64,000 bases of DNA from Symbiodinium sp. CCMP2592 (lineage: Eukaryota; Sar; Dinophyceae; Suessiales; Symbiodiniaceae): positions 260,986 through 324,985 of the forward strand of contig CAJNDT010000602.1 of the NCBI GenBank assembly GCA_905221615.1, given 5' to 3'. This document shows positions 15,721-64,000 of this stretch, in pieces. A program made the position numbers and the translations under genes. How positions within the stretch are numbered: the stretch's first letter is position 1; each line of letters begins with the position of its first letter. Below the pieces are notes generated by a model. It searched no databases. It saw nothing but the letters and a program-made list of their open reading frames with translations, and was not told where the DNA came from.

Positions 15721-15787
15721 ACGAGCAGGCACCGCGAGACACAAATCTCACATCCATTTCGAGGCTCGTGGACCTGTAATTCAATTT
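15720..15787. repeat. host repeat interrupted by a retrotransposon (left part)
   Basis: CACGAGCAGGCACCGCGAGA to CGTGGACCTGTAATTCAATTT. The continuation CGCGACTCGCCAAACCGAG is at 18181. A second, uninterrupted copy is at 18262-18370, so the empty site can be read from its neighbour. Confidence 0.75.
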
Positions 15788-18180
15788 TTTTTTCCAACGG
15801 ACTTTTCGAACGATCCGCGCGCGGTCGCAGTGCACCTGCGAACTACGGCATAGGAGAGGGGCTGCTGCGGCTCAGCGAGCCGGCAGGCAGCTGGGCAAAG
15901 GCGGGCACGCGTCGTGCAGGACGTCCTGCAGAGGCGGTGCCTGCGCGCCAGGCATAGGGGCATGGACGGGCGGCGACCCGAGCAGAGTGGCAGCAAGCGT
16001 GTTTTGCACAGCCACGCTGAGTAGGCCCCACCAGCGTCTGCACCAGCCCTGGGTGGCAGCTCCTCGGAGCGGAGCAGGGGCTCGCAGGGCACGCAAACGG
16101 ACGAGCTGCGCGACAAGGCGGAGCGACTCGTCGTTCCAGCGCCCGCCGGTCTCGCACGCGAGCACGCACAGCCTTTGCGGTCCTCGCATGTCCTCGCCGA
16201 AGGAGCTCGGGGTAGGCAGCGCGCTTGCGGCGTTCGGCGACGGCCAGTGCAGCACCGTCCCTGGTGGTCGAGGAAGGTTGCGGGCGGCCGTCGCGGGTAA
16301 GCGGCGAGACCAGGGTTACGTCGCAGCACAGTGCTTCGCCAAGCTGTGTGGCACCATATGCGACGAAGTCGAGACGCCGGCGATCGTCGGGGTCAACACC
16401 TGGGGCAGGCGTCCGTACTAGCCACTGTTGCGGGACGACCTGGCCCTCCGGCCCGACCGCTTCGCGCACGACCCTGATCCACGCGTGCTCGAGTGGCTTG
16501 GCTCGCCGGGCGAGCAGGCCGGTGCGGGGGCAGGCAGCATAGTGATCACCGTAAACGTCGACCGCGGCGCCGCAGCCGGGTCCATGGGCCCCGCATCTGC
16601 CTGGTGATGCCTGGTGCGACGGGCAGCGATAGGCGCAACCGTCGCCGCAAAGCGATGAGCATGCGGCCTGGCGGTATTGTGGTGCCGGCCTCGCTGGGGA
16701 CGGTGCCGAGCCAGGCGGCAGCGCGCGGCCCAGACTGCGAACGCAGCAGTGCTTGTGCAGGCGGCGCGAGGGCCGGCAGCAACTCGGTGTCGCGAAAACG
16801 GGTTGAACAAGCGCGAGAACCGTGATGCTGCCAGCCCTGGCACCGCTCGCCAGGCTCGGGCAGGTCGCATTGGGCCGGTCGCAGGCCGTCATGGATAGCG
16901 TCGACCTTCCCATCCTGCGTGGGTGAGGTGGGCACCAGCGGCAGCGGCGGCGCGCAGGCAAAGCGCGAAGGAGGCTGGTCATGCTGGTCCGGCTTCGAGT
17001 TCGGCCAGGCAACGCGCAGCAGCCTCGGGGCGACGCAGCCGCAAAACAGGCAAAGCGTCAGCCCACGCGGCCCAGTACGCGGCAGGAGCGACACGCTCCG
17101 CGCATTGGAGTCCGAGTCCGCCGAGGCGTGCCGGCAACAGCGCCAGGTGTCGCGCGGCAGCGACTTCAGGATCTTGGTCGTCCGAGCAAGTGGTCTGCAC
17201 GCGGGGCGGCACACATGGCAAGGATGAGCCACGCGCATTGCAAGTCCGGCAGCAGGGGGAGCTCCTGCAGCAGCCGGGTCTCCTCCCTGAGGCGAGCGTC
17301 TGTGTGCGACGCAACGTAGTCAGGGTGGCCGATGGGCGTGCCCATGCAAGGCGAGAAACCCTCGCTGCGCTTCGATCGCGTTACCGGTCCAGACCGCTTC
17401 GCCGAGTTCAGCAATGCCTGCGGGCGCAGGACCGCCTGCGCGGTTGTAAACGCGCGTCTTGCCCAAGTTGGCGGCGACGCCTGCCCGGTCCTGGATCGAC
17501 GTGGTGACGACGTCGAGCGCTTCCCGCGCACGCGCAGGCGTGGTCACGACGTAAACGTCATCGAGGAAGGCGGCCAAGCATTCACCCGGTTGCAGGCGCT
17601 CGTCGGCAGCAACGAGGGCATCGTGTTGGCCAAGCGCGTACAGGGCCGGGGCCAAGGCGTCGCCCTGCTCGCAGCCTTCGCCTTGGCGGATGCTCCGCCG
17701 GGTGCCAGACGCATCCCACCAGTAGTACGTAGACTGCTGGCCGTACCACAGGCGGACGAACGGCACAAGAGCTGGGGCGACCTCGCGCAACTTGCGCAGG
17801 AATGCAGCGCGAGAGATGGTGTTTAAAGCACTGCGGCCATCCAACGAGACGATCGTGGCGTCGGCATCAAGATCGATGGCAGCGCGCAGCATGCCAGAGA
17901 GAGCATCAGTGCCGGCGCGTGTCTGGAGGGCGAATTGGTAGGGGCGGGTGGCCTCGTCGAACGTGGTGGCATACTGGCGTGCCAAGCATCGCGACACTAG
18001 CCTACGGCAAGTGTCCCCCGTAGCTATCCCCCGCACCCCGCCGGCGGGCTTACGCAACGCCGTGAGGCGGGAAACGGCGAGTGCAGCAGCGATGTTGGCA
18101 GGGATTTGGGCCGAAGCGAGCAAGTTCGCGGCATGCGCGAACAGCTCGAGAGCTTCAGCGTCGTCGAGCTAATTCAATTT
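15778..18180 (-). mobile_element. 5'-truncated non-LTR retrotransposon with 10-bp TSD
   Basis: The target duplication AATTCAATTT is at 15778-15787 and 18171-18180. The plus strand shows a T run (15785-15793) at the left edge, i.e. a poly(A) tail on the minus strand, followed by CAACGGACTTTTC, which is also next to the tail of the full-length element at 22548. The body starts inside the RT region at about 18170, so some two thirds of a full element is missing 5'. Confidence 0.85.
15843..18123 (-). pseudogene. RT/restriction-like-endonuclease ORF, frameshifted
   Basis: The first part (17320-18123) reads through RT: VSLDGRSALNTISRAAF, RQGEGCEQGDALAP and AAFLDDVYVV (catalytic FxDD). Frameshifts then move the homology to other frames: LGGLGLQCAERVAPAAYWA near 17.05 kb, PPGRMLIALRRRLRLSLPVA near 16.65 kb, GDHYAACPRTGLLARRAKPL and DDRRRLDFVAYGA near 16.4 kb, and LVAQLVRLRALRAPAPLR near 16.1 kb. 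It aligns along its length with the ORF at 22628-25639 and is not translatable as one protein. Confidence 0.85.
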
Positions 18181-18370
18181 CGCGACTCGCCAAACCGAGA
18201 ATAGTGCGAAGCGGCGGCCAAAAGCTTCACACCAAGTTTGGTCCAGCGACTGGGACTGGAACGAGCAGGCACCGTGAAACACAAATCTCACATCCATTGC
18301 GGTGCTCGTGGACCTGTAATTTAATTTCGCGACCCGCCAAACCGAGAATAGTGCAAAGCGGTGGCCAGAA
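18181..18370. repeat. host tandem repeat, right part and intact second copy
   Basis: 18181-18225 completes the unit interrupted at 15787; 18262-18370 is the next unit (GAGCAGGCACCGTGAAACAC ... ACCGAGAATAGTGCAAAGCG). The unit is about 150 bp. Confidence 0.65.
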
Positions 18371-18739
18371 GTTTAAAACCAGTTTCTGTCCGATGATTCT
18401 CATGTGGGTCTGGCATCCGCGGGGCTGGGAAGGTCTATCATCTTGAACCCCGGATTTCAAACCCTGCACTCTCGGGCCCCCGGGGCCAGGATTCCAAACC
18501 CTCCAGTACCTGACCCTATATGGTCGATCTGCACTGGGACTGCCGCGCATTGGACGCCGCTGACTAGGCGTGTGTCACAAAAATAAGTTCCAAGCTGACA
18601 CAATGGCATGATGCTGCATGGAATTGTGGGCACGGCGCTGGCCGGCGTGCGTTGTGCCCTGCGGCTGGGTTGACTTATACGTTATCGTTATGCGTTGGTT
18701 ATTTTTTTCGCGCACTTTTTTCCTGCAGCTCAGAAGCCC

Positions 18740-19208: not shown

Positions 19209-19600
19209 CTACGGAACGGCAGCAAGGCATGTGGTTGGCGAGAGGAGGTGGGGCACATGGTTCGGCGAGACCGTCGCTGAGGAGGAGGGGATCTCCAACG
19301 ACATTAGCTGCACCGGAAAACGGTAGGGAAAGGAGGCTGCTCGGAAGGCACGGGCAGCGGCACATGCGAGCAGGGCGGACCACCGCAGCACATAGGCAGA
19401 GATGCAGGCACTTCGCAGGGGTGGGGGAGCGGACCGGGCTCGGCAACGGGATGCAACGGGCAAGGATCCGGAGTAACAGCTTCCACGCTCCACCTGCCGC
19501 CGGTTTCTATGCCAAGCACGACTAGGCGGCAGCGTCCGGAGTTGCACAGTTCCGGGTAAGTGCGCTCGCCGGGCGAATGGTGTTCTGCGCGAGTGCCGCA
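19209..19600 (-). pseudogene. decayed retrotransposon C-terminus, fragment 2
   Basis: Reads ERTYPEL, RCRLVVLGIETGGRWS and, in another frame, YVLRWSALLACAAARAF. The order matches the end of the RT protein (TYPEL, then LVLGSEIGARWN, then RWWGALSVAVQ). Same orientation as its two neighbours. Confidence 0.55.
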
Positions 19601-20095
19601 CCCCAAAGCGTGGTTGGCGACACCGGTTTTTCGTTGCAATGAGCAGGTTTGAGCAGGAGTGACATCGCGGAACCAAAACCAAAGCTCCCTCTCCAACTAA
19701 AGGTTCGATTCAAGCCTTCCAACCGGTAAACAATTGGCGTGTGTGGGCTGATGGCATGCCTACAGTTTGCACGGGTGCCGCGGCGACAAAGGCAGATGCA
19801 GAAGCACGTCGTCAGGCACCTGCTCAATGTCCACAGCATTCAGCCCACACAGGTGGGATCGGTATGTCCATGCCATTCCATGCCCGCAGCCACGGTGCGC
19901 AGGGGGTGAGAACGGAAACAAAGCACCAAGCTCCAAACGTCCATCATCCCTTATATGTGTTACGACAGGGGCGCGATGTTCACTATTATGCAGTATATGC
20001 AACAGTGAACGTGTAGCTTCGGATATTTTGCAATATTTTTCCCGGAAAAGCATTCTGCGACGGGGTCGTGCGGCCCATCGTGATGGGCGTGTCCC

Positions 20096-20600
20096 GCTCT
20101 CAGCGCAGCGGGGGGCGGCTCGGGCCAGCCGGCTCAGCGAGCGCCAACACGCGCTCCAATGCGGGCTCGCACCCCGCGGCCATGGTGTTTTTAAGGGCCG
20201 TGCCGCCAACGGCGTGTTGCACCGCGGCCGTTAGCATCCCCCACCGCCTGCGCGTTCAAGCAGTGGAGACGGCAGGAGGGCCGGGGGGCCGGCGGCGCAC
20301 GGAGAGCCCGTACCCGGACGAGCTGTCGGACAAGCGCCTGCCTGCAATATTCTGGCATGGCGCCCAGCTCGCCATCGATGCAAAACTACCGTGTCGCCAC
20401 CGACGCGTGATGGCCTGCCTCACCCAAGCGCCAATGTTCAGCCTAGCATCTCGCTCCCACGCAGCTCGCGCAGGCGGGCGAAGGATGCAGTTTCTTGGCT
20501 CCAACGCCCCCCTGTTTCGATGCCGAACTCAACGAGTCGGCAGCGGCGTGCACGGAGCAGCTCCGGGTAGGTTTCCCGCCGTTTCCTTCGCCCCACGTCC
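20096..20600 (-). pseudogene. decayed retrotransposon C-terminus, fragment 3
   Basis: Reads RRETYPELLRARRCRLVEFG, IETGGRWSQETASFARL, then in shifted frames ALVRQLVRVRALRAPPA, RRRWGMLTAAVQHAVGGTAL and PALERVLALAEPAG before a stop near 20096. Each word has a counterpart in the same order at the end of the full-length ORF. Confidence 0.65.
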
Positions 20601-20609
20601 CTCCTCCAG

Positions 20610-21100
20610 CTCCGTGCTGAATCTGAACCTGGTGCTGCTGGCGAACCGCCTGCTCTGCATGAGGTTTTGGCCGACGCACGCTTGCTCGTACAGCAGCGCT
20701 AGAGCCCAGTCGCTTGCCGGCTCGGCTCGCCTAAGCCTGTGCGTTGCGTTCCCCCGGCTCGCCGTAGTCAGCCCTGTGCACCGGGACCGCTTTGACTTCT
20801 GGTGAAAAGGTGCGTGGACAAACCATCTCGACATGACAGGCAGCACCTGCACCCGATTCTGCCATTTACACTTGTTCAGAAGATAACCAAAGGATATCAA
20901 AGGATGATATAGTATCCTTGTGAGTTGCGTTTCGCACTTCGGCATCGGGTCGGGTTTTCACCCAATCCGATGCATCTGGAAAAAGCCACGTTAGTGCATC
21001 ATAGTGCATCAGGGCGGACCTCTCCCCAAAATGCTGCTAAAAAATATTCGGGCGCGAAGTACCTCTTGTGCAAGTAATCGTCGGCACGTGGGTCATGTGA
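20610..21100. other. no gene seen
   Basis: Mixed sequence after the retrotransposon relics. A plus-strand frame reaches to 20805 but overlaps the relic and shows no domain. Confidence 0.4.
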
Positions 21101-22524: not shown

Positions 22525-22627
22525 GCACCATAGTTTTTTTTTTTTGTTCAACGGACTTTTCCGACTGCAAGAGGATCCGGTAGCTACGACAGTCCTACGG
22601 CATCACATTACTGCGTGCGGTCCTGGT

Positions 22628-25600
22628 TTAGGGCCGCAGGGGCAGGCGGCTGGGCGCCTCGTCAGCGGCGAGGTCGAGCACACGGTCCAGTGCTGGGCCA
22701 TCGCCCGGCCCCGGCGCTGGGACGGCTGGCCACGCGCGACCCAAAGCCGTGCCTGCAACGGCGAGCTGGACTGCGACTGACAAGGCTCCCCACCAGCGTC
22801 GCGCCCACCCAGAGGACGCGGCGCGACGCAGTGCGGGCGGCGCACGGAGAGCTCGGAGGCGGACGAGGTCGCGGACGAGATGCTGCGCTGTTGCATTCCA
22901 GCGGGCTCCGATTTCCGAGCCCAGCACCAGTAGCTTCTGCGGGCCGCCCCTCGCGAGCTCCGGGTAGGTGCTTTGCTTGCGCCGCTCCGCGACCTTCAGC
23001 GCCGCCCCGTCCACCTCCACTGTGCATGGATGCGGGTGCCCTGTCCTCGTGAGGGGGGACACCAGTATCGCGTCGCAGCACAGCGCCCCGCCATTGGCTG
23101 TGGCGCCGTAGACAACAAGGTCAAGGCGCCGACGGTCTTCGGTTGGGACGCCGGGAGCAGTTGTGTGGGCGAGCCACTGCTGTGGCACGACCTGGCCTTC
23201 GGGTCCTACGGCCTCGCGCGCCACGCGGACCCAGGCGCGCTCGACCACCTTCGCACGTCTGGCCAACAAGCCCGTCCGCGAGCAAGCTAGGGCATGGTCG
23301 CCTAAGGGGTCCATGGCTCCACCACATCCGGGGCTGGGGCCGCAGCGGCTGGGGCAAAGAGGCAGGGGCAGGCGAAGGCGTCGTCGCAACGCGATGAGCA
23401 TGGCCTGTGGCGGGATGCTGGTTGCCTGGTCGCACGGCACAGCGGTGAGCCACGCTCCGGCATGCGGCCCTGCCTGGGAGCGGAGCAGTGCACGCGAACT
23501 GGGCGGCAAGGAAGGCAGAAGCACGCAATCGCGAGAGTGTACGGTAAGGGTCCGCGACGCGTGGTACTGCCAGCCGTGCGGCCAGTCCCCGGCACCAGGG
23601 GCTGCAGGCGGGGCAGGACGGGCTCCTTCGAGGAGCACACGCCATGTTGGGCAATCGCTCCATCCTTGGTCCTGCAAGGTACGGCGTGCATTCGCTGCTT
23701 CTGCAAAGCAGTGCGCTCCACCTCCGGCGTCGGACTCGAGGAGGCGCGCATAAGTGGCCGCGCTTGAGGGCAGGCGCGCATTGATTGCAGGCAACGCATC
23801 CGCCCAGGAAGCCCAGTAGGCTGCAGGCGCTATCGCTTCAGCGGATAGCAACCCCAGCCCGCCCAGCGCACCTGGCAGGGCGGCGACCTGCCTCGCATGA
23901 GCGGCTTCCGCGTCGCCCATTCCGCCGAGCATGGCTTGCAGCGTGGCCCATATGGCATCATCATGTCCCCGCGCGTACGTCGCAGACGCCGAAGGGGGCA
24001 TGGTGCGAATGGCATGGTTCGCACGAGGGGATGCGCACATTAGCAAAAGCAACCATGCACACTGTAGGTCTGGCAGCTTGGGCAGTTGGTCGAGGAGCTC
24101 TTGCTCGGCGCGCAGCCTATCCTCGGCCCATGCTTGCACGAAGGCAGGGTGGCCCACGGGCGAGCCAAGGACGACGACACCCTGTTGGGCGTCTGGCTTG
24201 TCGCCTCGCCACACTTCATCGCCCAGTTCCGCAATCCCGGGCGGAGCTGGACCTGCTTCGGCGGCGGTCACCCGAGTCTTGCCCAAATTGGAAGCGATGC
24301 CACACCGGGCTTCGACAGCGTGCACGGTCGTGTCCAAGGCGGCTCGCGCGCGACACGGCTGTGTGATAACATACAGGTCATCCAGAAAAGCGACGAGGCT
24401 GTCGTCTGGGTGAAGCGCCGCTGCCGCCTGTTGGAGAGCATCGTGCTGTCCCAGTGCGAAAAGCGCGGGAGCGAGGGCGTCCCCTTGCTCGCACCCTTCA
24501 CCCTGAGGGACATCCCGGCAGCGGCCAGCGGAGTCCCACCAGCAGTAGCTGGAGGGGCTCCCGTAACACAGGCGCACGAAGGGGAGCAACTCCGGCGCCA
24601 CCTCGCGGAGTTTGCCGAGAAAGGCCGCCCGCGACATGCTGTCGTAGGCGCTGCGGCCGTCCAGCGACACCAGCACGGCGCCTCTGCGTATCGCGAGGGC
24701 GGCACGCACGTGGGTTGCGAGGGCGTCTGTTCCAGCTCGCGCTTGCAACGCAAATTGGAATGGCCGCGTTGCCTGGTCGAACTTATCGGCCCACTCCCTG
24801 GCAAGCGCTTTCGAAACCAGACGGCGGAACATGTCGCCGGTAGCGATTCCACGCGCGCCCCCGTCGGGCTTGCGCAAAGCGGTCAGGCGAGCCATGGCGA
24901 GTGCCTTGCACACGTCAGCTGGCACGCGAGCCTGCGCGAGAAGCGTGGAGGCTTCCGCCAGAAGCTCGATGGCCTCACCATCCTGCAGTAAAAGCTTCAA
25001 GTGTTCCGCTCGCATGCCCGAGAGGCCGGGAGACCCGCCACGACGTGCGGAGCGGAGGGCGGCGGCGATTGCTCGCGTGCTGAGGTGCACCGGCTGGGAC
25101 GGTTGGTGCTGAAGGACGTCCTGAGCGATTGCGGTCCGTGCCTCGGGAGGACGGCGTGCGGGGTCGGTCAAAGCGGCCCACGTAGCCTCGTTTCCGGGGG
25201 CCAGGTCGCAAGCAGTAAGCACCTGACGTGCGCGTGAAAGTTCGCCCTTTCGCACCTTCGCGCATGCCTGGTGCCGTTTGCGTTCGGCGATCTCGTTGGG
25301 GGGCAGTGTCGGGCTGTCGCGTGTTGGTCGGCTGACTCGGCGTGCCGCTTGTATCAGCTGGAGCCACTCCCCTTGCTGAAATGCTGCGGCCCGTCCCAGC
25401 AACTCGGCACGACCCTGCGAGCCTTGTTGCTCGGTGCGCGCAAGCAGCATGCGGGGTGCGAGGAGGAACAGCTTCCACGCCCTGGCAGCATCTGTGCCGT
25501 CGGGGTCGATGCTGGCAGCGCGTAGGCGTCGGAGTGCCTGCACGAGTGCTCCCCGCACCGCTGCACGCATGAAAGGAGGCGTATCTTGCAGCGTTGGAGC

Positions 25601-25639
25601 TGGGTGGCGCAGTTCGTCAACGAGGTCGACGCCATCCAA
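22628..25639 (-). CDS. retrotransposon ORF2: reverse transcriptase + restriction-like endonuclease
   Basis: 1003 codons from the first ATG (the frame is open further up, to about 25690). RT signatures: VLVSLDGRSAYDSM (about residue 323, catalytic Asp), QGEGCEQGDALAPALF (about 379) and AFLDDLYVI (FxDD, about 417). After a thumb-like region, a Cys/His cluster CGPSPGCGGAMDPLGDHALA-Cys (about 766-786) precedes DRRRLDLVVYG and LCCDAILVSP (about 835-860), a PD-(D/E)XK-like nuclease core as in R2-type elements. No apurinic-type endonuclease was seen. The protein would copy the element RNA at a nicked target. The RLE assignment is by motif order. Confidence 0.85.
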   Translation of the reverse strand: MDGVDLVDELRHPAPTLQDTPPFMRAAVRGALVQALRRLRAASIDPDGTDAARAWKLFLLAPRMLLARTEQQGSQGRAELLGRAAAFQQGEWLQLIQAARRVSRPTRDSPTLPPNEIAERKRHQACAKVRKGELSRARQVLTACDLAPGNEATWAALTDPARRPPEARTAIAQDVLQHQPSQPVHLSTRAIAAALRSARRGGSPGLSGMRAEHLKLLLQDGEAIELLAEASTLLAQARVPADVCKALAMARLTALRKPDGGARGIATGDMFRRLVSKALAREWADKFDQATRPFQFALQARAGTDALATHVRAALAIRRGAVLVSLDGRSAYDSMSRAAFLGKLREVAPELLPFVRLCYGSPSSYCWWDSAGRCRDVPQGEGCEQGDALAPALFALGQHDALQQAAAALHPDDSLVAFLDDLYVITQPCRARAALDTTVHAVEARCGIASNLGKTRVTAAEAGPAPPGIAELGDEVWRGDKPDAQQGVVVLGSPVGHPAFVQAWAEDRLRAEQELLDQLPKLPDLQCAWLLLLMCASPRANHAIRTMPPSASATYARGHDDAIWATLQAMLGGMGDAEAAHARQVAALPGALGGLGLLSAEAIAPAAYWASWADALPAINARLPSSAATYARLLESDAGGGAHCFAEAANARRTLQDQGWSDCPTWRVLLEGARPAPPAAPGAGDWPHGWQYHASRTLTVHSRDCVLLPSLPPSSRALLRSQAGPHAGAWLTAVPCDQATSIPPQAMLIALRRRLRLPLPLCPSRCGPSPGCGGAMDPLGDHALACSRTGLLARRAKVVERAWVRVAREAVGPEGQVVPQQWLAHTTAPGVPTEDRRRLDLVVYGATANGGALCCDAILVSPLTRTGHPHPCTVEVDGAALKVAERRKQSTYPELARGGPQKLLVLGSEIGARWNATAQHLVRDLVRLRALRAPPALRRAASSGWARRWWGALSVAVQLAVAGTALGRAWPAVPAPGPGDGPALDRVLDLAADEAPSRLPLRP

Positions 25640-27669
25640 AGCCCTCCACGCCTTGGCGTCGGCCTCGGCAACTCGGCCCGGGCAGACTGGGACCGATTGG
25701 CAGTCGTCATAACGTCATTCGCCGGCTCGGCGTCAGCGGGCCGTGGCTCGCGGGGACGGTCGCGTGTGGAACGAGCGCGGCGTCCCCGTCTGGAACGTCT
25801 GGGGGGCGGACGCGCATCGTCGTCGGGGCAAGCACGCCGCACGTCCTCTGCCAAAGATTGAGCTGCCGAAGCGATTGCGACCCCCCCGTACGTCTGGAGA
25901 AGGGCCACTTGTGCTGCAGCGGGGACGTAACCTTGTGCATTCATGCAGAGGGCGAGTGCGCTTGGTAGTGGCACAGGCGCCGGCGGCATAGCGGTCAGCG
26001 CTTCAGCCGACGCAACGTCGGCCGCGGCCGCTCCGTGAGCCGGGTCGCGGTCGATGCAGGCTAGCTCGGCGTGCAAGAAACGGAGGATGGTGGATGGCAG
26101 TGCGGGGGCCGCTCTCCGTAACGCTCCCGCCAGCTCAGCGAAGCGCGTGCCGATGCGGGGGTGGGATTGCCAAGCCTGCGTAGCTGCCGGTGTCATTGCG
26201 CCGGCACCGGCGTGGAGCAGTGGTACGAAAAGCCACGAACACGTCTCGCCTGGTGCCTGGTGGGGTGGGCGGGCGTCTTGCCAGCACAGCGGCTCGCGGG
26301 CAGGGGCTGGCAGCAGCGTCGGCGATGCAGGTGGCGTGAACCCTGGAGTGGCGTCGCCTGCTTCGCCCGGCGCCGCTTCCCCCGCGACACCGGGTGATGC
26401 TTCACGCTCCAGCTCGCGAGGCGACGCGAACGGCGTCTGTTCGCTGAGCGTGTCGCACACCGTTTCTGCATCGGACGTAGCACCCGCGTCTGGCCGACGG
26501 AGGCCCATTTGCTCCAGCGCACGGAGAGCACGATGGCGTCGCTGGTTGGTGGTGTCGTCTCCCGGGCCTGGGTTGGTCGCCTCGCCGATTCGTTGACCGT
26601 TGTAAGGGTGCGGCGGGGACGCCCTGGAACAAAGGAGGACAGTGGCTCGTGCGTTTTCGGCTCCTGCAAGCGGGGCTCGAGTGCATGACAGCCAGGAACT
26701 GCGCTCGCCGGGCGAACATCCTGCCATGGTAGTGGCGCGACGCCGCTGGCAGGAGGCACGACCTGCCGAGCATCGTAGCCGGTGCATGCTCCGCCCTGAT
26801 CCGTCACCGGCGGTGTTGATGGCGGCGTGAAGCCCCGTGTCGCCTCTCCTGCTGCGTCTGGTGCCATCGCGCCCGTGAGCGCATCTGGAGCCTCTCCACG
26901 TGGTGACGCGAAAGGGGTGATCGTGCTCAACAAGTCCGACAGGGTCTCGGCAGCATCGAGGTCCGCTTGGCGGTCGCGCAGTGCGGCCGGGCGGGTACTG
27001 GGGAGCAACTGCATTAGGGATCATTTGGGCAAGCGCATGCATGGCTCGTTCTCGGCGTTGCGCAACGGCAGCGCTGCATGGCGGGCCCGGGTGGGCAGAT
27101 TCCCCAACTCGCCTGCCATGGCAGGGGTGAGGCGTCAGCTTTGTGGACGCTGGTGCCGCCCGGTCGTGCGTCGGCGCGCGGGTCGCTGGGCCGCACCATC
27201 GGCGACCGCATCGTCGGCGAGAAGGTGAGCCAGCAAAGAGGCCGACGTGCGACCATGATGCCTGCGAGAGTTCGTCCAACGCCGTCTCGCCGCCTTGCAG
27301 TATGTACTGCAACACCTCGTGCCGGTGCGGGTCCTGGGTGCGGGCCGCAAGCTCGCACATCAGGGCCTCCCAGTTTGACGGGGTGTGTGGCGATGGGCGA
27401 CCGCCCGCTAGCGCGACGACCGCACTCACAGCTCGCCGGGAAAGAAGGCCGATGAGCACGCCCACGACCAGCCAACCCCACCCGAGAGCAAGAGGCCCAA
27501 AGCCCGGGGTGAAGTACCGGGGCGTCGCTCCGCTGCAAGTAAGGGCTGCGTGAGCCATGCTTTCCCTGCACGTCGGCGGCAAGGACGCGGCCCACCAGAC
27601 AGCCGACGAAGCCGCCGAGTAAGCACCGGCGCATGCCGACAACAGCTGTCCGATCACGGCTGCCGACAT
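25354..27669 (-). CDS. retrotransposon ORF1 / N-terminal part, with NPGP repeat
   Basis: 771 codons, Ala/Arg/Pro-rich. A hydrophobic segment (WLVVGVLIGLLSRRAVSAVV) lies near residue 65-90. Two related units follow: HPCHGRRVGESAHPGPP (about 27.1 kb) and HPYNGQRIGEATNPGP (about 26.58 kb), each followed by an Arg-rich RALRALEQM-like helix. NPGP is the core of 2A peptides, but the preceding residues do not fit the usual DxE consensus. The last 95 codons before 25639 overlap ORF2 in another frame, so ORF1 protein probably continues into ORF2 by a frameshift or a damaged junction near 25650-25690. Function unknown; nucleic-acid binding is only an inference from basic composition. Confidence 0.6.
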   Translation of the reverse strand: MSAAVIGQLLSACAGAYSAASSAVWWAASLPPTCRESMAHAALTCSGATPRYFTPGFGPLALGWGWLVVGVLIGLLSRRAVSAVVALAGGRPSPHTPSNWEALMCELAARTQDPHRHEVLQYILQGGETALDELSQASWSHVGLFAGSPSRRRCGRRWCGPATRAPTHDRAAPASTKLTPHPCHGRRVGESAHPGPPCSAAVAQRRERAMHALAQMIPNAVAPQYPPGRTARPPSGPRCCRDPVGLVEHDHPFRVTTWRGSRCAHGRDGTRRSRRGDTGLHAAINTAGDGSGRSMHRLRCSAGRASCQRRRATTMAGCSPGERSSWLSCTRAPLAGAENARATVLLCSRASPPHPYNGQRIGEATNPGPGDDTTNQRRHRALRALEQMGLRRPDAGATSDAETVCDTLSEQTPFASPRELEREASPGVAGEAAPGEAGDATPGFTPPASPTLLPAPAREPLCWQDARPPHQAPGETCSWLFVPLLHAGAGAMTPAATQAWQSHPRIGTRFAELAGALRRAAPALPSTILRFLHAELACIDRDPAHGAAAADVASAEALTAMPPAPVPLPSALALCMNAQGYVPAAAQVALLQTYGGVAIASAAQSLAEDVRRACPDDDARPPPRRSRRGRRARSTRDRPREPRPADAEPANDVMTTANRSQSARAELPRPTPRRGGLWMASTSLTNCATQLQRCKIRLLSCVQRCGEHSCRHSDAYALPASTPTAQMLPGRGSCSSSHPACCLRAPSNKARRVVPSCWDGPQHFSKGSGSS
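26640..27014 (-). pseudogene. frameshifted middle of the first ORF1 repeat unit
   Basis: In a frame different from ORF1, the minus strand reads LLSTITPFASPRGEAPDA, GFTPPSTPP and LPWQDVRPAS. The same words occur in the ORF1 frame about 0.45-0.5 kb downstream (EQTPFASPRELE, GFTPPASPT, LCWQDARPP). So the unit was duplicated and the first copy has since been frameshifted. Confidence 0.65.
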
Positions 27670-27716
27670 GGCATGAGGCTACTGCCCACCAATCCTTGAA
27701 AATCGTCTTGAGCTAT

Positions 27717-27734
27717 CCTTGAGCCAAAATGGCC
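27717..27734 (-). other. DinoSL remnant
   Basis: Minus strand GCCATTTTGGCTCAAG, identical to the 3' 16 bases of the conserved dinoflagellate spliced leader, exactly at the retrotransposon edge next to the TSD. The first six leader bases are missing, as expected for incomplete reverse transcription. Confidence 0.85.
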
Positions 27735-27745
27735 GCACCATAGTT

Positions 27746-29169: not shown

Positions 29170-29397
29170 GCCCGGCCCGTGTGCACTCGCAGTCTACGGT
29201 GTGCGACGCCGCTGAACTGCACGTCGGGAGGCCGGCGGCCGCAACAGCGGGACCGCAACAGCCCGATGGCGCGCAAGAAGGCTCAACAGCTGCACGAGCT
29301 GAGCTGCACGGGTTCGCCTCCAAACCGGCCACCGACCTTAATCCTGACAGTGACAAAACGGCAGCTACGGCAGCGTCGGGCATGACCGAGTTCAGGG
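29170..29397 (+). CDS. possible exon, unknown protein
   Basis: The plus-strand frame reads VCDAAELHVGRPAAATAG, ARAELHGFASKPATDLNPDS and TAATAASGMTEFR, then a strong donor AGG|GTATGTGTTG. Ala-rich, soluble. The minus strand is also open here, which lowers confidence. Confidence 0.35.
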
Positions 29398-30639
29398 TAT
29401 GTGTTGCGGCGTGCCGCTTTCGTCACAGCACGCCGGCTGGTACACGACGCCCACTCGAGTTCTACTAGTAACTAACTAGTACTAGCTACACACGCTTCCT
29501 GGCGCGCGGCAACTCGACCCATCCGCGCAACGTCGACTCACATCACGACATATCGCGAATACGTACATGCAGGTTTTGACGGAACACCTGGCAGACTGTT
29601 AAATCGGCACGGTGTCTGCACCTCGCACGACACTCTTCCCACAAAGTGAAGCTAACGTGCATAGAGACGCATTACAGTTGCAACGGCACGTTGAGTTTCG
29701 GGGGAACCCGCCCGGCGCGAAACAAGCGAAACCCCAATTGCACGCTGGGTTTCGGGCATCACAGCTCCAAGTGTCAATTTATCCAGTTGCATATGGCACG
29801 ACATTTTCCGCGAAACGTGAAGCAAAAGTGCAACCAAACGCGCGGGAACTGCACATTTGCGTCGCCCGTCCGAGTCCGTTGACGGCCATGGTCTTGTAAG
29901 GGCACGGCGAAATACGGCGAATGAGGAAATTTACTCAAACAAAATGGTCGCTGTACATCTGTACAGTTTGGCAAAACTCGTTGACGAAATCACCCGCATA
30001 TCCAGACCCTGCTTACGGCATCCCACGGATACATACATCCAAAGTTGAGATTCAAAAAACTGCCTTCGGTCCGAGCGTCTGCGCATGTGCCCTCGGTAGC
30101 CGCTAGCCATTGTAGCATGACAGTTGGTTTTAGTCGGGTTTTGAATCTCAATTACAGCAAGAATCCTGAAACAAAGGGCGCGCTGCCACTGGGTTGGTGG
30201 GGTGCCAGCGTAACAGCTAGGTCAAAGCTTCTGAGCAAGCTCATGAAGAGACTTCCCAGAGCAAAAACAAGCAAGTCTCCAATTGGAGACATATCCGTTG
30301 TCTCACTGGTGAAAAAACAGATACTACATTTGATCATAGCCGACAGGCCGAATAACTCAAGCTATGGCCCGCAAATCCCGCAATTGTACGTAGTGACAGG
30401 CGTTTTTTTTTTCGACCCGAGTGTCACAATTTTGTGCCGGACCGAAACAACACCGTTACACCGGTATACACAGCATCCATCAGCATCCCAAACTCGCCCA
30501 AGCAAGCAACAACAACCAAAGAACAACGTAAATGACACCGTGCTGGAACGATTGTCTACCACGGCACTATGGATCGGATCATCTTCAATCACATCTCACA
30601 TGCGGCAGCTGCATGGCACACAGCCCCAACAAATGCAAC

Positions 30640-31080
30640 CCTTAGAAGCGAGTCAAACACAGAACAGGCCAAGGGTTGGTCGCCGTCAACATTCGCGGTG
30701 CCGGCGAGGGAAAAAACAAGGAGGCTGGCATCGAAGACTCTGGCCCAAATCTGGCGGCAGAGAAACCGAACAAAGCAAACCATCGGGAGGGTAAAGAAGG
30801 CCATATGCAGCCATGGTTGCAGGCCACAACGGGCGGAGCATGGCGAGGCACAGTGCCCGCTGCTCCTCCCCAAAGCGGGAGCGCAAACATGACTTCGATG
30901 CGGTCGTCATCGAACCGCGCGGGGTGGATGTTGAGGTCGCGCAACAGAACATTGCGAGCAATGGGAACACAATATGGGCAGCGCGGTGGCCACCGAGAGA
31001 GTCAACAGGACGGCGGCAGTGACTGGCTGCAGCGTCGAGCGGCAAGGGCAAGCGAAGCCGGCAGAGCAACAAGGCTCCGA
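30640..31080 (-). pseudogene. decayed retrotransposon RLE region, fragment 4
   Basis: The minus strand reads CRLRLPLPLDAAASHC and PVDSLGGHRAAH (compare LRRRLRLPLPL and DPLGDHALAC of the full-length element), then in another frame RDLNIHPARFDDDRIEVM and LPLWGGA. The second pair resembles a nuclease core of a different subfamily. Frameshifts present. Confidence 0.5.
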
Positions 31081-44324: not shown

Positions 44325-44515
44325 CCTAACTAAACCTAAACCCTGAACCCTATACACTAAACACTGAACCCTAAACCCGAAATCCTGAACCCTTAACCCT
44401 AAACTCTGAACCCTAAACCCGAAATCCTGAACCCTATACACTAAACCCTGAACCCTAAACCCGAAACCCTGAACCCTTAACCCTAAACTCTGAACCCTAA
44501 ACCCTAAACCCTAAG
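44325..44515. repeat. telomere-derived higher-order repeat, 84-bp unit
   Basis: Degenerate CCCTAAA heptamers in which an 84-bp block (12 heptamers) starting GAACCCTATACACTAAAC at 44345 recurs at 44429. The variant words (CCCGAAATCCTGAACCC) keep their order. Confidence 0.8.
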
Positions 44516-62198: not shown

Positions 62199-64000
62199 TT
62201 TCTGCATAGAAGCCTAAATGCTTTGAATACAGCAAGGGATTCTGGTTTGCTGTTCTGGAGGCCCCCGGCAGGCCGCTGCACTATTGAGGGGACCTTTTCA
62301 TCCGAACTATTGCGGGGTGGGCAGCTATCGTATACTACCCCTTAGAAAAGTTGTTGGGATGGCTTTTTTAATAAGGGGTTTATATAAGAAACCTATAGAT
62401 CTGGCAGCCGTGCAAAACCAGAGTTTGGAGCTTTGGCCTGAATCCCTGAAGGCTGGAGACTTGAGGTTTCTATATAGAAGCCTTATGGTTTTGAATACAG
62501 CAAGGGATTCTGGTTTGCTGTTCTGGAGGCCCCCGGCAGGCCGCTGCACTATTGAGGGGACCTTTTCATCCGAACTATTGTGGGGTGGGCAGCTATCGTA
62601 TACTACCCCTTAGAAAAGTTGTTGGGGTGGCTTTTTTAATAAGGGGTTTATATAAGAAACCTATAGATCTGGCAGCCGTGCAAAACCAGAGTTTGGAGCT
62701 TTGGCCTGAATCCCTGAAGGCTGGAGACTTGAGGTTTCTATATAGAAGCCTTATGGTTTTGAATACAGCAAGGGATTCTGGTTTGCTGTTCTGGAGGCCC
62801 CCGGCAGGCCGCTGCACTATTGAGGGGACCTTTTCATCCGAACTATTGTGGGGTGGGCAGCTATCGTATACTACCCCTTAGAAAAGTTGTTGGGGTGGCT
62901 TTTTTAATAAGGGGTTTATATAAGAAACCTATAGATCTGGCAGCCGTGCAAAACCAGAGTTTGGAGCTTTGGCCTGAATCCCTGAAGGCTGGAGACTTGA
63001 GGTTTCTATATAGAAGCCTTATGGTTTTGAATACAGCAAGGGATTCTGGTTTGCTGTTCTGGAGGCCCCCGGCAGGCCGCTGCACTATTGAGGGGACCTT
63101 TTCATCCGAACTATTGTGGGGTGGGCAGCTATCGTATACTACCCCTTAGAAAAGTTGTTGGGATGGCTTTTTTAATAAGGGGTTTATATAAGAAACCTAT
63201 AGATCTGGCAGCCGTGCAAAACCAGAGTTGGAGCTTTGGCCTGAATCCCTGAAGGCTGGAGACTTGAGGTTTCTATATAGAAGCCTTATGGTTTTGAATA
63301 CAGCAAGGGATTCTGGTTTGCTGTTCTGGAGGCCCCCGGCAGGCCGCTGCACTATTGAGGGGACCTTTTCATCCGAACTATTGTGGGGTGGGCAGCTATC
63401 GTATACTACCCCTTAGAAAAGTTGTTGGGATGGCTTTTTTAATAAGGGGTTTATATAAGAAACCTATAGATCTGGCAGCCGTGCAAAACCAGAGTTGGAG
63501 CTTTGGCCTGAATCCCTGAAGGCTGGAGACTTGAGGTTTCTATATAGAAGCCTTATGGTTTTGAATACAGCAAGGGATTCTGGTTTGCTGTTCTGGAGGC
63601 CCCCGGCAGGCCGCTGCACTATTGAGGGGACCTTTTCATCCGAACTATTGTGGGGTGGGCAGCTATCGTATACTACCCCTTAGAAAAGTTGTTGGGGTGG
63701 CTTTTTTAATAAGGGGTTTATATAAGAAACCTATAGATCTGGCAGCCGTGCAAAACCAGAGTTTGGAGCTTTGGCCTGAATCCCTGAAGGCTGGAGACTT
63801 GAGGTTTCTATATAGAAGCCTTATGGTTTTGAATACAGCAAGGGATTCTGGTTTGCTGTTCTGGAGGCCCCCGGCAGGCCGCTGCACTATTGAGGGGACC
63901 TTTTCATCCGAACTATTGTGGGGTGGGCAGCTATCGTATACTACCCCTTAGAAAAGTTGTTGGGATGGCTTTTTTAATAAGGGGTTTATATAAGAAACCT
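62199..64000. repeat. satellite array, 267/268-bp unit, at least 6.7 copies
   Basis: The unit (e.g. from GGACCTTTTCATCCGAACTA) starts near 62290, 62558, 62826, 63094, 63361, 63628 and 63896 and continues past the window end. Copies are almost identical: a G/A difference in GGG(A/G)TGGCTTTTTTA and loss of one T in GAGTTTGGAGC (copies near 63.23 and 63.49 kb). The array begins inside a diverged unit (CATAGAAGCCTAAATGCTTT). 62-109-codon frames recur only because the unit repeats. Confidence 0.95.

Follow-up and report, generated by a model that had tools for sequence, protein, structure and literature searches.

Symbiodinium is an alga that lives as a symbiont of corals, and Slamovits and Keeling reportedly described in 2008 dinoflagellate retrogenes that carry a relict DinoSL. 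The subject here is an R2-like long interspersed nuclear element (LINE) in a 64,000-nucleotide (nt) stretch of the Symbiodinium sp. CCMP2592 genome (C602:260986–324985; genome size 1,098,105,373 bases), termed the window, which displays nt 7–22 of the 22-nt spliced leader (SL) at its 5′ end. Relict leaders on host retrocopies of dinoflagellates are well known (PMC12014239, PMC6050394, PMC3229502 and PMC7245778, as excerpted). The retrogenes in these excerpts resemble the element in having a genomic leader remnant from reverse-transcribed, trans-spliced RNA and truncated older leaders (CTCAAG) beside others. Their cargo, however, is described there as host genes or transcripts, whereas the cargo here is a retrotransposon with an enzyme of its own, and a target-site duplication and poly(A) mark the edges of the insertion. 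Endogenous RNA-virus genes near leaders in Symbiodinium have been credited to host retroelements such as LINEs (excerpt of PMC10235124).

Leader pieces at retrotransposons have already been noted in flatworms, according to partial source text, and an excerpt of PMC12582326 mentions 597 discarded loci with mobile elements. In the excerpted earlier reports (PMC12582326 among them), as in the present case, retrotransposon transcripts are given a leader by trans-splicing and then integrated; unlike here, this is offered as a possibility, without insertion edges and for other hosts and element families. One excerpt also names chimeric assembly as an alternative. In Hydra, the leader is present on about 30% of Iso-Seq reads from transposable elements (PMC12220107); this is RNA evidence, and the excerpt makes no mention of genomic relics. 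The trypanosomatid elements ingi and L1Tc are likewise LINEs whose hosts use SL trans-splicing generally, but the available part of PMC8190864 describes the opposite solution, i.e. a promoter of their own (Pr77) and unspliced transcripts. CRE, SLACS and CZAR of trypanosomatids are LINEs with a restriction-like endonuclease (RLE) that are tied to the spliced leader by insertion into SL RNA genes (excerpt of PMC12278014), whereas the element lies at an unrelated site and its leader appears to be a splicing product. No report of leader remnants on dinoflagellate LINEs was found in the open-licence literature searched. The principle is known; new are the dinoflagellate LINE case with insertion edges, the older leaders and the strand test on sampled loci.

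The element very probably originated from an R2-like LINE transcript that was trans-spliced by the host, copied back together with the leader and inserted by target-primed reverse transcription. It extends from position 27734 to 22536 on the minus strand, 5199 nt (~5.2 kb) without the duplications, and has a G+C content of 67% vs. 53% for the window. The order on the minus strand is the duplication AACTATGGTGC, a G, leader nt 7–22, GATA, GCTCAAG, 37 nt and the ATG at 27669, followed by two long overlapping open reading frames (ORFs), the box GAAAAGTCCGTTG, about 10 A residues and the duplication again (Table 1). The leader is therefore enclosed within the duplication.

An earlier reading of the window from its letters alone (termed the sequence-only reading) had claimed an 11-bp duplication on both sides, a poly(A) at one edge and the leader exactly at the other. 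The duplication GCACCATAGTT is indeed exact at both sites and no third site is present in the window at ≤1 mismatch. The poly(A) was also confirmed as a T run on the plus strand adjoining the 3′-side duplication; the run is of 12 T from 22534, two of which may be part of the duplication. The leader 16-mer GCCATTTTGGCTCAAG corresponds exactly to nt 7–22 of the leader as printed in PMC7245778 (partial text). It is the sole match in the window even at ≤3 mismatches, and the leader 3′ end recurs elsewhere in the window as one 9-mer at most. The leader does not, however, stand exactly at the edge; one G, possibly untemplated, separates it from the duplication. Shuffled windows gave a mean of 1.11 matches in the GCACCATAGTT search and 0.83 in the GCCATTTTGGCTCAAG search. 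Bare match counts are thus within chance at loose mismatch settings, and the weight lies on exactness and position. Random pairs of window stretches (40 nt and 30 nt) shared ≥11 exact bases in 13 of 19927 cases. No empty site for the element was found within the window, and no long terminal repeats (LTRs) are among the repeats found in it.

In the proposed process, the host would join the 22-nt SL to the LINE transcript at an acceptor that coincides with the element's 5′ end or lies just upstream of it. The polyadenylated, leader-bearing RNA would then be reverse-transcribed at a nicked target, copying would stop six nt short of the leader 5′ end, and the copy would be inserted with an 11-bp duplication. 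Alternatively, the enzyme could have jumped from LINE RNA onto SL RNA while copying, without trans-splicing. R2-type enzymes can switch templates, but a jump should bring in the SL RNA intron or random starts. The leader instead stops precisely at its 3′ CAAG in the window copy and in two related copies (loci L049 and L054), and the units of tandem leaders meet at exact borders; a template jump is thus highly improbable.

A second GCTCAAG just inside the leader had been suggested as a possible older leader. Judged from the window alone this was too weak, and sibling copies in the host genome decided in its favor. The 418 nt past the leader remnant were used as a query and yielded at least 20 rows at a minimum of 18 genome places (L066, another piece of the place already represented by L056, was dropped; L062 and L064 share a single place but were kept as two of six rows that start inside the element). 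Two copies, L048 and L049, show 100% identity (rounded) to the window copy over 414 nt, from GCTCAAG onward only. Upstream of this common GCTCAAG the three junctions differ: the window copy has the leader and GATA, L049 has a complete 21-nt leader joined straight to GCTCAAG, and L048 has GCTCAAG, TAGGGAGG and GCTCAAG. GCTCAAG is thus inherited by all three copies, each under its own newer junction, and this supports its reading as an older leader. L048 also displays the same 3′ box, an A11 tract and 96.6% identity over 1148 nt of its 3′ side. L049 shows an 8-base duplication-like match, which does not adjoin a poly(A).

These near-identical siblings contradict the notion that the LINEs here are all old. 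In the excerpted genome comparison PMC8045281, Symbiodiniaceae LINEs are described as divergent remnants; this source, in which the strain is called S. tridacnidorum CCMP2592, also has DinoSL-selected Iso-Seq reads for it.

Renewed transcription of such a copy would add a further leader upstream of the existing one, and leaders would pile up. The AG dinucleotides of the leader are possible next acceptors; use of the leader itself as acceptor has been proposed for retrogenes (excerpt of PMC3229502). If an acceptor in the flank were used instead, a scrap of the flank of the source locus would come with it, and this would account for GATA and the TAGGGAGG segment of L048.

More distant copies of the family have 72%–87% identity, with leader calls made partly by eye. 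L054 has a 21-nt leader with one mismatch, L055 a 17-nt leader piece with one mismatch, L060 two decayed leaders in tandem, and L051 a leader with a 3-nt gap. Thirteen copies extend to the 5′ end (window copy included); of these, five have a leader score of ≥14 (null 0.4%) and eight a score of ≥8 (null 2%). The null was drawn from 20000 random 100-mers of the same loci, leaders included, and is conservative. The six rows that start inside the element gave 0/6 and 1/6, respectively. The claim that a LINE was reverse-transcribed from a trans-spliced transcript is supported by the leader inside the duplication together with the poly(A), and by the leaders on other copies.

The exact 16-mer is present 1314 times (685 + 629) in the 1.1 Gb of the host genome; the reversed control pattern is not found. 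Assemblies contain errors, and the frame breaks described below may be such errors, but these counts, and the agreement between separate copies, make a chance match or assembly artefact negligibly probable as a source of the leader. The first 20 of 100 listed places (of the 1314) were sampled with 8 kb around each, tandem ones being collapsed. A reverse transcriptase (RT) is found downstream on the same strand at 9/20 SL loci (95% interval for this share, 0.23–0.68), and on the opposite strand at 0/20. The same RT profile applied to the window (8 pieces on two strands) matched 2/16, which are the two LINEs of the window. Pfam RVT_1 was found independently in eight of the nine RT loci; the ninth, L032, was outside the Pfam scan and is 95.9% identical to L029.

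The nine RT loci represent about six families: L028/L039 and L029/L032 form near-identical pairs, with L046 a relative of L029. They are of more than one type. L043 has an RT of the window element's superfamily, L035 has an RT with RNase H, and L028, L039 and L046 show an APE-like endonuclease just under the Pfam cut-off. L033 displays an RLE fragment by tblastn and no match to the RT profile, and was counted as without RT. Leaders in direct tandem are present at seven of the nine RT loci vs. none of the 11 others; leader-like scraps past the leader in L033 and L037 fall outside the tandem definition. Ahead of the same sequence, L029 shows one partial and one whole leader and L032 three leaders, the 95.9% identity extending over 7.4 kb. 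The best reading is that host trans-splicing has supplied the leader to transcripts of several LINE lineages, which were then copied back together with it, in some lineages repeatedly.

The RLE type proposed by the sequence-only reading stands. ORF2 matches Pfam RVT_1 (2.4e-12), a 29-sequence profile matches R2 at 5.6e-12, and C766, C772, H782 and C786 are conserved in 26–28 of 28 sequences. The predicted model of ORF2 aligns structurally to R2 up to model residue 970, over the RT, the CCHC motif and the C-terminal endonuclease region. The element is an R2-like LINE of the RLE type, as judged by its RT, CCHC motif, putative C-terminal restriction-like endonuclease, duplication and non-LTR 3′ end. 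It differs from R2 in its 5′ and 3′ ends and in lying outside 28S rRNA genes; at Rfam gathering scores U2 alone was found in the window. The description as full-length applies only to the two ends, both complete; against P0002 and P0005, which are fused proteins, the coding region breaks into three frames. Three pieces of the gene model P0121 (Symbiodinium sp. CCMP2592) match the window: two do so at ≥99% and the third, across predicted exon joins, at 81%. The start methionine of the upstream ORF is common to 5/7 homologues, one of which is the window's own gene model.

The upstream ORF also contains two copies of the motif R(V/I)GE(A/S)xxPGP, and GE(A/S)xxPGP occurs in 16/127 proteins fetched. 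Reading GEAxxPGP as 2A-like was dropped, since the spacing of the motif is unlike the 2A consensus.

Table 1. Positions of the element's features and of a related insertion in the window (aa, amino acids).
Feature	Position	Strand	Observation
Target-site duplication, 5′ side of element	27735–27745		exact 11-bp match to 22525–22535
Single G between leader remnant and duplication	27734	minus	sequence
Spliced-leader remnant, nt 7–22 of 22-nt leader	27718–27733	minus	exact, unique in window
GATA between newer and older leader	27714–27717	minus	private to window copy; absent from L048 and L049
GCTCAAG, 3′ seven nt of older leader	27707–27713	minus	common to L048 and L049 below differing upstream sequence
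Upstream ORF, 771 aa	25354–27669	minus	starts 48 nt past leader remnant; no Pfam match
ORF2, 1003 aa	22628–25639	minus	RT residues 256–459; CCHC 766, 772, 782, 786; C-terminal R2-like RLE region
3′ terminal box GAAAAGTCCGTTG	22549–22561	minus	common to decayed relative and to 3′ end of sibling L048 (locus L067)
Poly(A) 3′ end (T on plus strand)	22536–22545	minus	sequence
Target-site duplication, 3′ side of element	22525–22535		exact 11-bp match to 27735–27745
Decayed, 5′-truncated relative	15777–18180	minus	11-bp duplications TAATTCAATTT at 15777–15787 and 18170–18180; same 3′ box, poly(A); no leader

A decayed relative lies 4.4 kb away on the same strand (body 15788–18169). An unfilled paralogous site at ~18260–18385 represents its empty target: the joined flanks align over 126 columns at 88%, and the single gap in the alignment is one base omitted when the flanks were joined. 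The relative repeats the 11-bp duplication, the 3′ box and the poly(A), thus the insertion signature recurs; being 5′-truncated, it is without a leader, as expected. The relative bears on the question of which enzyme moved the element. A LINE message could have been trans-spliced but moved as passive cargo by the enzyme of another element. Excerpts of PMC12014239 and PMC6050394 portray the leader as generally added in dinoflagellates and host retrocopies with relics as frequent; in Polarella the leader is given for only 13.5% and 50.4% of full-length transcripts (excerpt of PMC7245778). The broken coding region of the window copy and the presence of other leader-bearing LINE lineages in the genome also fit transport as cargo. 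On the other hand, the relative and L048 have the same 3′ box directly ahead of the poly(A), and the relative also has an 11-bp duplication, both as expected if one machinery recognizes the 3′ end of its own family. Transport as passive cargo is unlikely; mobilization by the element's own enzyme would be the more probable course.

The element might instead have once resided in an SL RNA gene, like CRE or SLACS, and taken the leader from it. CRE elements insert in SL RNA genes (excerpt of PMC12278014), and among 120 listed homologues P0114 is labelled SLACS and P0068 and P0098 "132 kDa protein" by their source. However, the leader pieces are complete at the 3′ end and cut on the 5′ side, the leader-bearing LINE lineages are of more than one type, and the two insertions in the window are both outside SL genes. 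Such a residence is highly improbable.

Several points limit the case for trans-splicing and copying back as the origin of the leader, or weigh against it. The evidence comes from the genomic DNA of one genome, 20 sampled loci and one leader-bearing insertion with all edges. That insertion has a broken coding region, i.e. the window copy is not itself a working source. L048 yielded no target-site duplication, and a search of the fetched stretch did not reveal the 3′ end of L049. The sequence-only reading had pointed to the aligned 5′ ends of other copies as a check: a strong leader is present in 5/13 copies that reach the 5′ end, and none in another 5/13 (L052, L053, L056, L057 and L065), a share that refers to a single family. 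The RT profile was seeded with four of the sampled loci and the window. The tandem-leader comparison gave a Fisher p of 0.0005, but near-identical pairs within the first-20 sample cause p-values to overstate independence.

Other features of the sampled SL loci were observed. CCCTAAA-like telomere repeats are present ≤120 nt upstream of the leader at 7/20 loci (L028, L030, L031, L032, L039, L042 and L046), five of them with RT; the LINEs at such loci may have a preference for telomere-like targets. A (GA)n tract is found ≤60 nt upstream at 5/20 loci, none with RT (L027, L034, L038, L044 and L045). L027, L034 and L044 have related sequence past the leader, and the scanned ORFs of L034 and L044 gave no Pfam match.

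The SL pattern was also found in six viral contigs, five of which look like chance 16-mers by their flanks. The sixth, L001 (IMG/VR IMGVR_UViG_3300045993_001077, positions 1936–2908), has two leaders of ≥21 nt (CCGTAGCCATTTTGGCTCAAG), 147 nt apart; a 254-aa ORF lies about 50 nt downstream of the nearer one, and the ORFs around are AT-rich. This arrangement may be a host-derived cDNA in a large DNA virus, or reflect leader use by such a virus. Protein scans of viral-contig and genome-contig collections yielded no related loci.

Elsewhere in the window, degenerate C-terminal fragments of RLE LINEs are present at 19380–20695. A U2 spliceosomal RNA (55.7 bits), conserved in its 5′ part, is located at 30197–30357 on the minus strand, and short RLE-LINE fragments flank it on both sides (29301–29429 and 30861–30962). 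An interstitial, telomere-like CTAAACC array is found at 44330–44514, and a tandem array of 268-bp units with 99% matches occupies 62199–64000, up to the window end.

An excerpted review (PMC6050394) regards the element type behind dinoflagellate retroposition as unknown and favors LTR elements. A wider reading of the present data can be offered tentatively, and is possible rather than probable. LINEs of several lineages would have ceded their 5′ end to the host; the leader would be spliced on and written into DNA at each cycle, with its AG as the next acceptor, and tandem leaders would record the cycles. LINEs, and not host genes alone, would then be among the main carriers of SL relics, and their machinery the agent of dinoflagellate retroposition.

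A LINE family with near-identical copies bears the very tag by which retrogenes are recognized. Retrogene counts based on leader relics may contain a large number of LINEs, as 9/20 of the sampled SL places suggest, and tandem leaders could serve to count cycles of retrotransposition. The leader at the start of an element indicates movement as a host-processed message, and this may help to explain how messages are copied into the genome.

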